From NCBI GenBank assembly GCA_947626285.1, contig CANQRR010000008.1, positions 1 through 64,000 of the forward strand: DNA of 64,000 bases, read 5' to 3'. Under the pieces are notes generated by a model. That model was given only the letters and a program-made list of their open reading frames with translations, searched no databases and was not told the origin of the DNA. The DNA is from an uncultured Lachnospiraceae bacterium (GTDB lineage: Bacteria; Bacillota; Clostridia; Lachnospirales; Lachnospiraceae). Each line of letters starts with the position of its first letter. Within the stretch, counting starts at the first letter, position 1. The position numbers and the translations under genes are program-made. Below are positions 20,667 to 26,469 of the stretch, one piece after another.

Positions 20667-21809
20667 TCACGATGCGGCCGTCTGTCCCTGTGTATACCGG
20701 TCGATCTTCTGTTTTTTGTACTGCTGATAACGCCCCTGTTCGATCGCTTCGCGGATCTCCTCCATCATGTGATTGTAAAAGTACAGGTTGTGAAGGACGC
20801 ACAGCCGCATGCCGAGCATCTCCTTCGCCTTGAGCAGATGGCGGATGTAAGCGCGGCTGTAGCTCCGGCACGTCGGGCAGCCGCAGCCCTCCTCGATCGG
20901 GCGCTCGTCCAGCTCATACTTCGCGTTAAACAGATTCAGCTTGCCGTCGTTCGTGTAGACGTGCCCGTGGCGGCCGTTGCGGCTCGGGTAGACACAGTCG
21001 AAAAAATCGACGCCCCGGTCCACCGCCTCAAGGATGTTGACCGGCGTGCCCACGCCCATCAGATAAGTCGGTTTGTCCTCCGGCAGCTCCGGCACGACCG
21101 CATCCAGGATCCGGTACATCTCCTCGTGCGTCTCGCCGACCGCCAGCCCGCCGATCGCATAGCCGTCCAGGTCAAGCGCGGAGATCTGCCGCGCGTGTTC
21201 GATCCGGATATCATCGTAAATTGCACCCTGGTTGATGCCGAACAGAAGCTGATGCGGGTTGATCGTGTCACCCAGACTGTTCAGACGGCGCATTTCGTCC
21301 TTGCAACGCACGAGCCAGCGCGTCGTTCGATCCACCGAGTGTTGCACGTAATCACGCTCCGCCACACTCGACGGGCACTCATCGAACGCCATCGCGATCG
21401 TCGAGGCCAGATTCGACTGGATCTGCATGCTCTGTTCCGGCCCCATAAAAATCTTTCGCCCATCGATGTGCGATTGGAAATAGACACCCTCCTCCTTGAT
21501 CTTTCGCAGACTCGCGAGCGAGAATACCTGAAATCCGCCCGAGTCCGTAAGGATCGGCCGATCCCAATTCATAAAGCGATGCAGACCGCCAAGCTTCTTC
21601 ACGATGTGATCGCCCGGCCGCACATGCAGGTGGTAGGTGTTCGAGAGCTGCACCTGCGTCCCGATCTCCTTTAAGTCCGTCGTCGCCACAGCGCCCTTGA
21701 TCGCGGCTACCGTCCCGACATTCATGAACAGCGGCGTCTGCACCGTGCCGTGTACCGTCTGAAATTCCGCTCGCTTCGCCCTGCCGTCCCTCTTCAATAT
21801 CCGATACAT
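20667..21809 (-). CDS. tgt: tRNA-guanine transglycosylase
   Basis: This 380-residue enzyme exchanges guanine for preQ1 at position 34 of GUN-anticodon tRNAs in queuosine synthesis. It has the general acid/base Asp in ILTDSGGFQVFS, the base-binding strand LFGINQGAIYDD, the nucleophile Asp in FFDCVYPSRNGRHG, and the zinc site CGCPTCRSYS with a distal His in VLHNLYFYNHMM. The last catalytic loop reads YPSRNGRHG rather than the common MPTRNARNG, a variation to note. The ATG at 21809 follows GGGGAG; upstream frame extension is not homologous. queA is not in the window. Confidence 0.92.
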   Translation of the reverse strand: MYRILKRDGRAKRAEFQTVHGTVQTPLFMNVGTVAAIKGAVATTDLKEIGTQVQLSNTYHLHVRPGDHIVKKLGGLHRFMNWDRPILTDSGGFQVFSLASLRKIKEEGVYFQSHIDGRKIFMGPEQSMQIQSNLASTIAMAFDECPSSVAERDYVQHSVDRTTRWLVRCKDEMRRLNSLGDTINPHQLLFGINQGAIYDDIRIEHARQISALDLDGYAIGGLAVGETHEEMYRILDAVVPELPEDKPTYLMGVGTPVNILEAVDRGVDFFDCVYPSRNGRHGHVYTNDGKLNLFNAKYELDERPIEEGCGCPTCRSYSRAYIRHLLKAKEMLGMRLCVLHNLYFYNHMMEEIREAIEQGRYQQYKKQKIDRYTQGQTAAS

Positions 21810-21898
21810 GCCTTCTCCCCTTTTTAAGAAAATAGACCATTTCGTCTTTTCATACAACGCTTCTTTCGGAATATAAGTATAAATGGAAATTTTTAATC

Positions 21899-21928
21899 TT
21901 GCAACCACCAAGATAAATGTCGTATAAT
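21899..21928 (+). promoter_or_regulatory. Promoter of the activase leader
   Basis: TTGCAA (21899-21904) and TATAAT (21923-21928) with an 18-base spacer. The predicted transcript start, near 21935, falls just before the outer stem of the folded leader, so the whole structure would be transcribed. Confidence 0.6.
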
Positions 21929-21937
21929 GTCCGCGTA

Positions 21938-22125
21938 AGCAATGAGCCATGCAAAGACAGCGGAGCGTGAAACGTCTGCTCGCAGACAGTTTCACGGGAC
22001 GATGGATTTATAGGGCGAATGCCCGTGACAGTGGAAAGCCGACAGGCTTTTCACTGTCGGCATGGCTCAATGAACCGCTCACGAGCATCTGTACTTTGGC
22101 GACGGATGATAGGGCGAATGCCCGC
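21938..22125 (+). ncRNA. Multi-hairpin structured leader upstream of the acyl-CoA dehydratase activase
   Basis: This part of the 358-bp gap between tgt and the activase is densely self-complementary. An outer 10-bp stem joins 21943-21952 to 22060-22069 (TGAGCCATGC/GCATGGCTCA). Inside are a 13-bp hairpin at 21966-21996 (CGTGAAAC+GTCTG, loop CTCG, one bulged A), a GGGC-GAAT-GCCC hairpin at 22013-22024, and a 14-bp hairpin at 22027-22058 with loop GACA and one G-U pair. A second GGGC-GAAT-GCCC lies at 22112-22123, 45 bases before the TTG start. It could be a cis-acting RNA, a separate small RNA or an inserted palindromic repeat. I cannot match it to a known riboswitch. Confidence 0.6.
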
Positions 22126-22167
22126 ACTTATTTTCATTTCCTGCGAATTTATAAGGAGGCATTTACT

Positions 22168-25100
22168 TTGTCTACGAATACATCAGCAGTAAATACGATC
22201 CATACTCTTGGGATCGATATCGGCTCCACGACGGTCAAGCTAGCTGTGTTAAGCCCTTCCCGGGAGCTTTTATTCTCTGACTATAAACGTCACTTTGCGA
22301 ACATCCGGGAGACGCTGTCCGATCTGATCAGCGAGGCGGCGAAGCTGCTCGGCAATCTGCGGGTATCCCCCGTCATCACCGGCTCCGGCGGACTCGCGCT
22401 CGCGAATCATCTCGAGATTCCCTTCGTTCAGGAGGTGATTGCGGTCGCGTCTTCTCTGGAGCAGTACATACCCCAGACGGACGTAGCGATCGAGCTGGGC
22501 GGTGAGGACGCGAAGATCATCTATTTTGAGAACGGCAACGTCGAGCAGCGCATGAACGGTATCTGCGCGGGCGGCACCGGCTCCTTTATCGACCAGATGG
22601 CCTCTCTTCTGCAGACGGATGCGGCAGGGCTGAATGAATATGCGAAGAATTACTCTTCCCTGTATTCCATCGCTGCGCGCTGCGGCGTGTTCGCGAAGTC
22701 CGATATCCAGCCTTTGATCAACGACGGCGCCACCAAGGAAGACCTCTCCGCTTCCATTTTTCAGGCGGTCGTAAACCAGACCATCAGCGGCCTGGCCTGT
22801 GGCAAACCGATTCGCGGGCACGTCACCTTCCTCGGCGGTCCGCTCCACTTCCTGTCTGAGCTTAGGCAGGCGTTTATCCGCACGCTGAATCTCGACGACG
22901 AGCATGCGATCGAGCCGGAGAACTCCCATCTGTTTGCCGCGATCGGTTCCGCGCTGAACGCGAAGCCGGAGACGACAACAACGCTTGGCGCGCTGCAGGA
23001 AAAACTCTCCGGGCCGATCCATATGGAGTTTGAGGTCGCGCGCATGGAGCCGCTGTTCGCCTCCCAGGAGGACTACGATCACTTCATCGCGCGCCAAAGC
23101 TGTCACCGCGTGGCGACCGGCAGCCTTGCCGAATATAAGGGCAACTGCTACCTCGGCATTGACGCAGGATCTACGACGACCAAAGCCGCGCTGGTCAGCG
23201 AAGACGGCACGCTTTTGTACTCTTTCTACAGCAACAACAACGGCAATCCTCTGCGCACGACGATCACAGCAGTTCAGGACATCTACCGACAGCTGCCGAA
23301 GGACGCGCGCATTGCCTGGTCCTGTTCGACAGGCTATGGCGAGGCGCTCATCAAGGCCGCGCTGCTGCTCGACGAGGGAGAGGTAGAGACGGTCTCGCAC
23401 TACTACGCCGCTTCGTTCTTTGACCCGGAGGTCGACTGTATCCTCGACATCGGCGGCCAGGACATGAAATGCATCAAGATCAAGAATCACACGGTCGACA
23501 GCGTCCAGCTCAACGAGGCCTGTTCCTCAGGCTGCGGTTCGTTCATCGAGACGTTCGCGAAGTCATTGAATTATTCCGTGCAGGATTTCGCGAAAGCGGC
23601 GCTTTTCGCAAAGCATCCGATCGATCTCGGCACGCGCTGCACCGTGTTCATGAATTCCAAGGTCAAGCAGGCGCAGAAGGAAGGCGCGGAGGTCTCCGAT
23701 ATCTCGGCCGGACTTGCCTATTCTGTCATTAAAAACGCCTTATATAAAGTCATCAAAGTATCTGACGCCTCCGAGCTCGGACGCCACATTGTGGTGCAGG
23801 GCGGCACCTTCTACAACGACGGCGTCCTTAGAAGCTTCGAGCGCATCGCGGGCTGTGAGGCGATCCGTCCGGACATCGCCGGCATCATGGGCGCGTTCGG
23901 CGCGGCGCTGATCGCGCGCGAGCGCTACCAGGAAGGCGCGCAGACGATGATGCTTTCCAGCGAGCGCATCGACGCGCTGCAGTACACGACGACGATGGCG
24001 AAGTGCAAGGGCTGCACGAATCAGTGCCGTCTGACGATCAACCGCTTCTCCGGCGGACGCCAGTATGTCAGCGGCAACCGCTGCGAGCGCGGCATCGGCA
24101 AGGAGCGCAACAAAGATCATGTGCCGAATCTGTTTGAGTTTAAAAACAAGCTGCTCTTCTCCTACGAGCCTCTCCCGGAGGACGAGGCGGAGCGCGGCAT
24201 TGTCGGCATCCCGCGCGTACTGAATATGTACGAAAACTACCCGTTCTGGTTCCGCTTCTTCACGGAGCTGAAATACCGGGTGATCCTCTCGCCGCCGAGC
24301 ACGCGCAAGATCTACGAACTCGGCATCGAATCGATCCCCAGTGAATCGGAGTGCTATCCGGCCAAGCTTGCGCACGGACATGTGGAGTGGCTGCTGCGCA
24401 AGGGCATCAAGTACATATTTTATCCGTGCATCCCGTATGAACGCACGGAGTTTTCGGACGCTCCGAATCACTACAACTGCCCGATCGTTACTTCCTACGC
24501 GGAGAACATCAAGAACAACGTCGAAGGGCTGCGCGACCCGTCGATCCGCTTCGAGAATCCGTTCATCGCGTTCACGAACCTGGACACCGTGACGAGCCGC
24601 CTGAAGGACGCGTTCCCGGATATTCCGGCGAACGAGGTCATCGCCGCGGCGAAAGCCGGCTGGGAGGAGCTCGCCCACACGCGTGAGGCGATGTACCAAA
24701 AAGGTCAGGAAACTTTGAAATATCTTGAGGAGACCGGCCGCCACGGCATCGTGCTCGCAGGCCGCCCCTACCATATCGACGGAGAGATCAACCACGGCAT
24801 CCCGGAGCTAATCAATTCCTTCGGCATGGCGGTGCTGACCGAGGATTCGATTTCCAACCTAAGTCCGGTGGAGCGCCCGCTGATGGTGCTCGACCAGTGG
24901 ATGTACCACAGCCGTCTCTATGCGGCGGCAAATTTTGTCAAGACGCGCGAAGACCTCGACCTGATCCAGCTGAATTCCTTCGGCTGCGGTCTGGACGCCG
25001 TCACGACGGACGAGGTCAACGATATCCTCTCAAATTCCGGCAAGATCTACACCTGCCTGAAGATCGACGAGGTCAACAATCTGGGCGCCGCCAGGATCCG

Positions 25101-26469
25101 CGTGCGCTCTCTCATCGCGGCGATTCGTGTGCGCACACAGCATGATCTGGAACCGCGCAGGATCGTCCCAGCGAACATCAACCGCGTCATTTTCACAAAG
25201 GAGATGCGCAAAGAATACACGATCCTCTGCCCGCAGATGTCTCCGATCCACTTCCATATGCTGGAGGCGGCGATGAACGCGAGCGGATACCACATTGAAT
25301 TGCTGCGAAATGATAACCGCAAAGCGATCGATACCGGATTGAAGTACGTCAACAACGACGCCTGCTATCCGTCTCTGATGGTAGTCGGACAGGTGATGGA
25401 CGCCCTGCTCTCCGGGAAGTATGACTTAAGCCGCACCGCCGTGATCATGACACAGACCGGCGGCGGCTGCCGTGCGTCCAACTATGTCGGTTTCATCCGC
25501 CGCGCATTGCAGAAGGCGGGTATCCTGAACGTCCCGGTCATCTCGCTGAATCTGAGCAGCCTCGAGAGCAATCCCGGCTTCACGCTCAGCTATCAGCTCA
25601 TCAAGCGCTGTATGTTCGCGCTGGTATTCGGCGATATCTTCATGCGCTGCCTTTACCGCATGCGCCCCTATGAGAAGGAGCCGGGTTCCGCGAATGCGCT
25701 CTTCCACCGCTGGGAGGACCGCTGTTGCGAGTTTGTATCGGGCAAGCCCTCCTACACCGCGTTCAAGAAGATGTGCCGCGAGATCGTCCACGATTTCGAC
25801 AATCTTCCGATCACCGACGAGCAGAAGCCAAAGGTCGGCGTGGTCGGCGAGATCCTCGTGAAGTTCATGCCGGCGGCAAACAACCATCTGGTCGATCTTC
25901 TGGAATCGGAAGGCGCGCAGGCGGTCGTTCCGGATCTGATGGACTTCCTGCTCTACTGCTTCTACAACCAGAATTTTAAGAGCGAATATCTCGGGACAAA
26001 GAAAAAGTCCGCGATGATCGCGAACTTCGGCATCTATGTTCTGGAGAAGCTGCGCTCAGCGGCAGCCGCTGAACTGGAGAAGAGCGTTCACTTCGATCCG
26101 CCTACCCAGATCTGGCGCCTGGGCGACATGGCGAAGGACATCGTCTCACTCGGCAACCAAACCGGCGAGGGCTGGTTCCTGACCGGCGAGATGCTGGAGC
26201 TCATCCACTCCGGTGTCAACAATATCGTCTGTACGCAGCCGTTCGCCTGCCTGCCGAATCATGTGGTCGGCAAGGGCGTCATCAAGGAACTGCGCCGCCA
26301 ATACCCGCTGTCGAACATCGTTGCGATCGACTATGATCCGGGCGCCAGCGAGGTCAACCAGCTCAACCGCATCAAGCTGATGCTCTCCACCGCGCAGAAG
26401 CGCCTGAAAGAAGCTGACGCGGCGGCGGAATCCGAAGCGAAAGCTGAAGCCGCAGTTTCAAACGCGTAA
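22168..26469 (+). CDS. Giant 2-hydroxyacyl-CoA dehydratase activase-related protein
   Basis: This 1433-residue protein has two tandem BcrAD/BadFG ASKHA ATPase domains: the first at about 12-265 ([33 protein letters not shown]), the second at about 325-585 ([33 protein letters not shown]). A Cys-rich linker (CKGCTNQC) follows, then a DUF2229 domain (about 680-900) and a C-terminal HgdB-like region with [13 protein letters not shown]. Activases use ATP to push an electron onto dehydratases through a [4Fe-4S] cluster; in this fused class the substrate is unknown. I place the start at the TTG, eight bases after AAGGAGG; the frame is open further upstream, but that crosses the folded leader. No separate dehydratase subunits are near. 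Confidence 0.88.

Follow-up and report, generated by a model that had tools for sequence, protein, structure and literature searches.

The window that we analysed is a stretch of 64,000 nucleotides from an uncultured Lachnospiraceae bacterium (GCA_947626285.1, contig CANQRR010000008.1, positions 1 to 64,000). It contains the gene for an activase of the 2-hydroxyacyl-CoA dehydratase type, which diverges from a tgt gene. The space between the two genes holds a promoter, a structured element with four stems (P1 to P4), the relic of a second module and a ribosome binding site (RBS) outside the element (Table 1).

Table 1. Features between tgt and the activase gene
Feature	Position	Strand	Basis
Divergent upstream gene, queuine tRNA-ribosyltransferase (tgt)	20667..21812	-	Pfam TGT
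Activase promoter, TTGCAA, 18 nt, TATAAT	21899..21928	+	Consensus scan
Conserved 5' end of the element, CGCGTAAGCAA	21932..21942	+	Common to copies across genera
Structured core; P1 = 21943-21952 with 22060-22069	21943..22069	+	Fold and covariation
P2 domain: AAA/UUU base, short helices, 13-bp CUCG-loop hairpin	21953..22009	+	Fold; model positions 16-72
P3, GGGC-GAAU-GCCC, sequence near-invariant between copies	22013..22024	+	Pattern search, alignments
P4, long GACA-loop hairpin	22026..22059	+	Fold
Relic, 3' part of a second (type B) module, with the second GGGC-GAAT-GCCC	22077..22125	+	blastn
Activase RBS, AAGGAGG	22153..22159	+	Sequence
Activase gene (CoA enzyme), TTG start 22168-22170	22168..26469	+	Pfam DUF2229, BcrAD_BadFG

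An earlier, sequence-only reading of this DNA had described a 10-bp stem that closes over three hairpins, and our folding calculations bear this out. The MFE fold of positions 21930-22130 has an energy of -92.4 kcal/mol (z -5.98), and none of 200 shuffled sequences folded as well (mean -62.62, sd 4.98). This fold contains the closing stem, the 13-bp CUCG-loop hairpin with one bulge in its stem, the 4-bp GGGC-GAAU-GCCC hairpin, and the GACA-loop hairpin, for which our model counts 15 pairs instead of the 14 counted before. The second copy of the small hairpin that had been pointed out downstream was found at 22112-22123; with its 5' flank, the pattern has two matches in the window at up to 3 mismatches, where 0.01 are expected. 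What had been missed is that this hairpin belongs, as its tail, to a 49-nt stretch (22077-22125) with 90% identity by blastn to part of another copy of the element in the home genome (G000:C40:10082-10130). Extra modules at the position of this relic also occur in the activase leaders of two relatives (G005 and G022).

The proposed promoter was likewise recovered by a consensus scan as a promoter-like TTGCAA-18-TATAAT, and its -10 box ends exactly 3 nt ahead of the element. Judging from this spacing, we infer that the transcript starts within positions 21932-21942. The promoter is intact, and a scan found no terminator between the element and the activase gene. The N-terminal part of the activase itself matches the Pfam model of the IS110 DEDD transposase at 31.5 bits (cut-off 29), which probably reflects a common fold and no transposase.

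P1 may bear a likeness to domain V of group II introns, for which the Rfam scans gave no family match. The sequence-only reading could not match the structure to a known riboswitch, and Rfam gave the same answer at three scales. The window had no match at the gathering threshold; a search of 351 bases at E<=10 returned two sub-threshold matches only, both on the opposite strand (E 0.28 and 1.3); and a scan of 20 element loci identified two T-boxes beside copies and no family inside the element. Five sequence stretches of the element had zero occurrences in the text of the open-licence PMC papers searched, and we recognised no description of it in the parts of these papers at hand, a body of text that leaves absence from print unproven.

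To find related sequences, we searched the 3.73-Mb home genome with positions 21930-22150 by blastn and obtained 35 matches at E<=10, spread over many contigs. The activase leader is one copy of a dispersed, four-stem element of approximately 135 nt. Its copies come in two inner layouts, type A as at the activase gene, and type B with another P2 domain. Full copies of both types start with CGCGAAAGCAATGAGCCGTGC and finish with GCACGGCTC, with variation, and one subfamily has an outer repeat TTCGTGTTTAG / CTAAACACGAA that is imperfect at the right end. A covariance model built from six type-A copies (R1) gave 30 matches in the home genome at E<=1 and 19 at E<=2e-4, the weaker of these 19 being partial. 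Five matches weaker than 2e-4 are antisense or partial and lie on or near the arms of strong copies.

Four copies in the home genome (L015, L018, L021, L033) carry a further hairpin module, GATGCCGCCCCGGCGAGGG, which is nested with its preceding stem in the P3 loop; the same module stands alone in the activase leader of G042 (L164). Tandem arrays of the element were seen at L081, L085, L143, L065 and L137, and in the last of these a -10-like TAAAAT or TATAAT lies in the spacer before each next copy. A tandem array of four copies with a period of 131 is present in G012:C4.

The genes that follow the copies in the home genome encode AspRS, HflX, SmpB, type I glutamine synthetase, glutamate racemase, glycogen/starch phosphorylase, a PcrA/UvrD-like helicase, an antiporter or NADH-dehydrogenase-like subunit, a DHHW protein, a beta-CASP nuclease, DUF1015, an acyl-ACP thioesterase, an alpha-amylase and a class I tRNA synthetase. 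We located fifteen genes downstream of copies and scanned 14 of them (L016 was left out). Among the activase and these 14 genes we found no common gene class.

The element is not confined to one genus. At E<=0.01, R1 matched 23 of 41 relatives, namely 21 of the 25 genomes of the same genus (0 to 45 matches each, with none in the other four) and 2 of 16 genomes from other families of the order. In a sample of 250 genomes that represents nearly every genus of the family once, 124 matched at E<=1e-6; since 13 candidates were scored per genome, copy numbers from this sample are lower bounds. A sample of the class gave 12 matching genomes out of 245: eight from the same family (including the home genome), one from another family of the order, and three from outside the order. 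The element is thus rare outside the family Lachnospiraceae. A 24-base pattern from P3-P4 gave 61 matching stretches in named genomes, with record titles that include Lachnospiraceae, Parablautia, Hungatella effluvii, Mediterraneibacter, Lachnoclostridium, Coprococcus, Ruminococcus and Eubacteriales; two cultivated carriers among these hits are Parablautia sp. Marseille-Q6255 and Hungatella effluvii DSM 24995. Weaker matches in other families of the class (L245-L249; E 3.5e-9 to 7.6e-15) keep the layout unchanged, and several of them lie directly 3' of terminator-like sequence.

The covariation check that the sequence-only reading had called for revealed strong compensatory change in two sets of copies. 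The six seed copies alone have double changes at 21 of 46 pairs. In a first set of 103 matches from 91 loci (of 174, apparent duplicates of one copy having been left out), 90.8% of cells are paired, compared to 69.2 in shuffles and 28-42 with slid partners, and double changes occur at 43 of 46 pairs (shuffles: 32.0). A second set, with 53 matches at 47 loci of which almost all belong to other genera, has 91.9% of cells paired (shuffles 60.5, slid 36-40) and again double changes at 43 of 46 pairs. Both alignments, which also underlie the G-U counts given below, were fitted to R1 and are biased towards it. P3 is conserved at the sequence level; in P2 and P4 the bases change and the pairing is retained.

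Two observations identify the strand that folds. In stem cells of the first set, G-U outnumbers A-C by 142:26 and G-A outnumbers C-U by 230:18; the corresponding ratios in the second set are 76:14 and 112:6. In addition, 83 of 84 copies form their more stable fold on the + strand (mean -66.5 kcal/mol vs -57.2 on the - strand). Together, these biases and energies show that the constrained molecule is the + strand, as RNA or as single-stranded DNA.

We then examined where the 5' ends of the copies lie. For this purpose we used 84 of the 103 first-set matches (the other 19 were cut off, antisense, further tandem copies or on a short array contig) and, from the second set, 40 copies of the family drawn from the best matches listed, one per genome except for two from G105. 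Seven copies from outside the family are included in the 47-locus alignment and excluded from these counts. When the 84 copies are aligned on their CGCGAA end, a TATAAT-like hexamer (5/6) ends exactly at -3 in 19 of them and at -2 or -1 in seven more; no other offset back to -70 has more than three. A run of at least five T ends at 0 or -1 in 18 of the 84, and position -2 is T in 73 of 83 copies. The second set has the hexamer at -3 in 8 of 40 copies and T at -2 in 33 of 40; T-runs of this length at 0/-1 are found in only 3 of 40.

A looser score, laxer than these strict counts, accepts as a landmark a -10 box (4/6) at -4 to -1, a T-run of four, or a same-strand stop codon that ends an open frame of at least 80 codons. 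Three copies had too little flank and were dropped (two of 84, one of 40). Of the remainder, 72 of 82 in the first set (-10 box 30, T-run 20, stop codon 22) and 31 of 39 in the second (13, 6 and 12, respectively) have a landmark immediately at their 5' end. Shifted control positions in the same flanks scored 10.1% of 1055 and 5.3% of 507. Because some copies are orthologous across species, these counts are not fully independent. Two results count against the reading that the element is placed by such landmarks: none of the three is present at 10 of 82 and 8 of 39 copies, and on the opposite strand at the 3' side a landmark occurs in 18 of 81 and 9 of 39 copies, which is above the shifted controls.

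By eye, several landmark-less copies appear to lie at terminators, tRNA 3' ends or rRNA spacer. Copies after tRNA ends were seen at L231, L236 and L242, and L121 and L111 lie in apparent rRNA spacer. Two copies are located 25-31 nt 3' of T-box leaders (L218, 50-269 +; L230, 466-726 -), where they sit between the T-box attenuator and the following sequence. According to rough gene calls that include short false ORFs, the downstream gene is on the strand of the element in 57 of 75 cases and on the other strand in 18 of 75; the upstream gene is on the other strand in 28 of 79.

Returning to the activase locus, we read 27 activase leaders of the genus and could recognise the element in four of them: it is present in the home genome (G000), G005 and G003, and as rearranged modules in G022, and the other 23 leaders have no recognisable element. 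The leaders of G005, G003 and G022 also contain R1 matches. A similar promoter stands ahead of the activase gene in most relatives, with or without the element (by reading). The orthologous leaders of G005 and G003 keep the fold through pair-preserving changes in P1 and P2, and P4 is rebuilt (again by reading); this could result from selection on structure or from gene conversion by other copies. Past the promoter, the 5' leader differs almost wholly between species of the genus (L145-L171), and unrelated other hairpins are frequent (e.g. L154, L152, L164), which makes this leader a hot spot for turnover.

Comparison of orthologous sites provided evidence for mobility. A search with eight flank pairs uncovered sites without the element at hflX (G009; also G012 and G016), the antiporter-like gene (G022), the amylase gene (G009), the helicase gene (G022, G012) and the phosphorylase gene (G012, G011). 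In several of 18 flank comparisons the place of the element is taken by remnants, a rearranged element (G005) or longer sequence of no relation to it, and one (L183) has no left flank. The element-free sites are unpolarised, and some of them may be losses. Conversely, G022 contains two copies that are identical over 132 nt and a third that is 99.2% identical, all with unrelated flanks; their likeness stops near TTCGTGTTTAG on the left and CACTAAAC(ACGAA) on the right. Since relatives have the same sites without the element and identical copies occupy different sites, the element is or was mobile.

The search for an enzyme that could move it, which covered Y1 transposase and group II maturase, identified no mobilising gene. 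The Y1 (RAYT) transposase had no match in the home genome, in a search whose control matched 5 of 14 named genomes, and none was found in G003, G016 and G022. Across the genus, Y1 is present in 16 of 30 genomes without relation to copy number, and G008 and G021 have Y1 and no copies. A group II maturase was found neither in the home genome nor in G022, the genome with the most copies. The genomes searched are drafts (90-97.6% complete) in which a gene may have been missed, and the mobiliser may have been lost from them. By eye, we saw no consistent target-site duplication in the flanks of the orthologous sites or of the G022 copies, a comparison without strain-level pairs.

These data allow several explanations to be weighed. 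A stable multi-helix junction between promoter and start codon would suit a riboswitch or another leader that regulates the activase specifically. We regard this as scarcely credible, as few activase leaders of the genus contain a recognisable copy, 14 other scanned copies precede unrelated genes, and no terminator was found before the gene; with the negative Rfam searches and no associated gene class, we rejected a riboswitch or known RNA. The cis-regulatory RNA of the sequence-only reading is not supported as a device of the activase, given 4 of 27 leaders and no neighbour class. What does stand is an RNA that covaries, is strand-specific and lies in sense at transcript boundaries, features not expected of a repeat that is blind to strand. 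Similarly, that reading had held that many copies at unrelated genes and on both strands would indicate a dispersed repeat: the unrelated genes are there, but the copies are not indifferent to strand, as their landmark lies upstream. Its third suggestion, a small RNA gene acting in trans, draws on the promoter directly upstream. We consider it extremely unlikely because no terminator was found between element and activase, relatives without the element have a similar promoter before the activase gene, and many other copies follow stop codons or terminators. The mobile palindromic repeat that it had also suggested fares best, with many copies at unrelated genes, element-free sites in relatives and identical copies elsewhere.

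As to the kind of mobile repeat, a palindromic and dispersed element that is partly found behind terminators might be a REP/REPIN moved by Y1 (RAYT), or a SINE-like passenger of a group II intron reverse transcriptase, an enzyme that also prefers terminators; an integron attC site was a further candidate considered. The first two are very improbable: Y1 was not found in four genomes (home genome, G003, G016, G022) and is present in the copy-free G008 and G021, and a maturase was not found in the home genome or G022. We rejected REP/RAYT on the grounds that the distribution of Y1 is unlinked to copy number, and copying driven by group II introns because these two drafts yielded no maturase.

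A stronger competitor is a functional RNA at transcript ends that is kept by selection and spreads only secondarily, such as an mRNA protector at the 5' end or between cistrons, a processing site, or the site of a global RNA-binding protein. In its favour are compensatory changes in the sense-strand structure over many genera, the near-invariant P3, the exact spacing behind -10 boxes in two sets, and the compensating changes read among the orthologous activase leaders of G000, G005 and G003. Sequence conservation of P3 far above the need of a decaying repeat points to function and against a passive repeat, and the fold kept at the activase locus of G005 and G003 could also be explained by selection for function. 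Nevertheless, we judge this explanation unlikely. Presence is patchy, as four of the 25 genus genomes and roughly one half of those sampled across the family have no match, and the same genes occur without the element in relatives. Furthermore, promoter-linked copies have CGCG upstream of the predicted start, and conservation there is not explained by RNA.

The nearest kind of known system is the BOX element of Streptococcus pneumoniae. BOX elements are described as small, interspersed, modular repeats with a tight predicted fold in which terminal repeats pair (PMC3049150); they are co-transcribed with genes, are likely parasitic with slow current movement, and in one case lie between T-box leaders (PMC3049150). 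Our element is, like BOX as portrayed in PMC3049150, modular with paired termini and even found beside T-boxes, a likeness of kind only. Its modules and host are different, a distinction by description and not by sequence comparison, and unlike BOX as there described its copies directly abut -10 boxes, T-tracts and stop codons on one strand, and its fold is strand-specific. The same paper reports that repeats are enriched between convergent genes in pneumococcus (PMC3049150); the same-strand downstream genes of our element, as far as rough calls tell, set it apart from these. REPINs, as described in PMC3116915, are non-autonomous, extragenic, form hairpins in ssDNA or mRNA, occur in tandem clusters and are moved by RAYTs. 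The element shares all but the last of these features with REPINs as described there (PMC3116915). REP sequences measure 20-40 bp according to PMC3733652; in contrast to short REP doublets, our element is a four-stem junction of ~135 nt, and Y1 was not found in the home genome. MITEs as a class have, according to PMC3049150, terminal inverted repeats, base-paired structure, mobility, target-site duplication, a high AT content and ends like those of a full transposon of the host. P1 pairs the ends of the element, which accordingly has terminal inverted repeats and a highly base-paired structure; sites with and without it and identical copies elsewhere indicate mobility, with the direction of change unpolarised; and the copies listed in the first set have a G+C content of 0.47-0.70, so that they are not AT-rich. 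Structured cis-regulatory RNAs in Rfam have conserved structure, compensatory change and often a place at the 5' end of transcripts in common with the element, which differs from them in having no family match (window, 20 loci) and no linked gene class. The constraint on the sense strand and the flush landmarks set this family apart from BOX and REPINs.

In our view, the activase leader is most likely a copy of a BOX-like, non-autonomous mobile repeat that was inserted behind a -10 box and became the predicted 5' end of the mRNA. The family consists of repeats, common in Lachnospiraceae, of ~135 nt (up to ~210 where modules are nested). Their 5' end CGCGAAAGC is conserved, P1 is formed by terminal inverted repeats, and the inner hairpins P2-P4 can be swapped or nested. 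The fold that is conserved belongs to the + strand, the sequence that a transcript would have, and the element is presumably transcribed. New copies, probably moved by an enzyme supplied in trans, would insert so that their 5' end comes immediately after a T-rich landmark of a same-strand transcription unit. At the activase locus this landmark would be an older promoter, with the insertion 3 nt behind TATAAT. Promoter-linked copies have predicted starts inside CGCGAAAG; the activase mRNA is predicted to start inside CGCGTAAG and to contain in order the folded element, the relic module, AAGGAGG and TTG, such that the insertion would have left the gene's own RBS intact downstream. Any effect on the activase would likely be incidental, through the influence of a stable 5' structure on the life of the mRNA, with no sensing of a ligand.

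A more far-reaching version, which we put forward tentatively and with a modest chance of being right, is that a SINE-like element with RNA structure is inserted by machinery acting in trans where transcription has opened the DNA (on the non-template strand of the -10/start region and at the T-tracts of terminators). It would then lie in sense exactly where transcripts start and end, and would reshape the 5' ends of housekeeping mRNAs throughout a major family of gut bacteria.

In this dominant gut family, about one half of the genera sampled carry a structured element that is absent from Rfam and is the predicted 5' end of many mRNAs. As long as it is uncatalogued, its copies are liable to be mistaken for riboswitches, as nearly happened at the activase gene. 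The exact spacing from -10 boxes and T-tracts is a clue to insertion coupled to transcription, or to a general role of the RNA at transcript ends.
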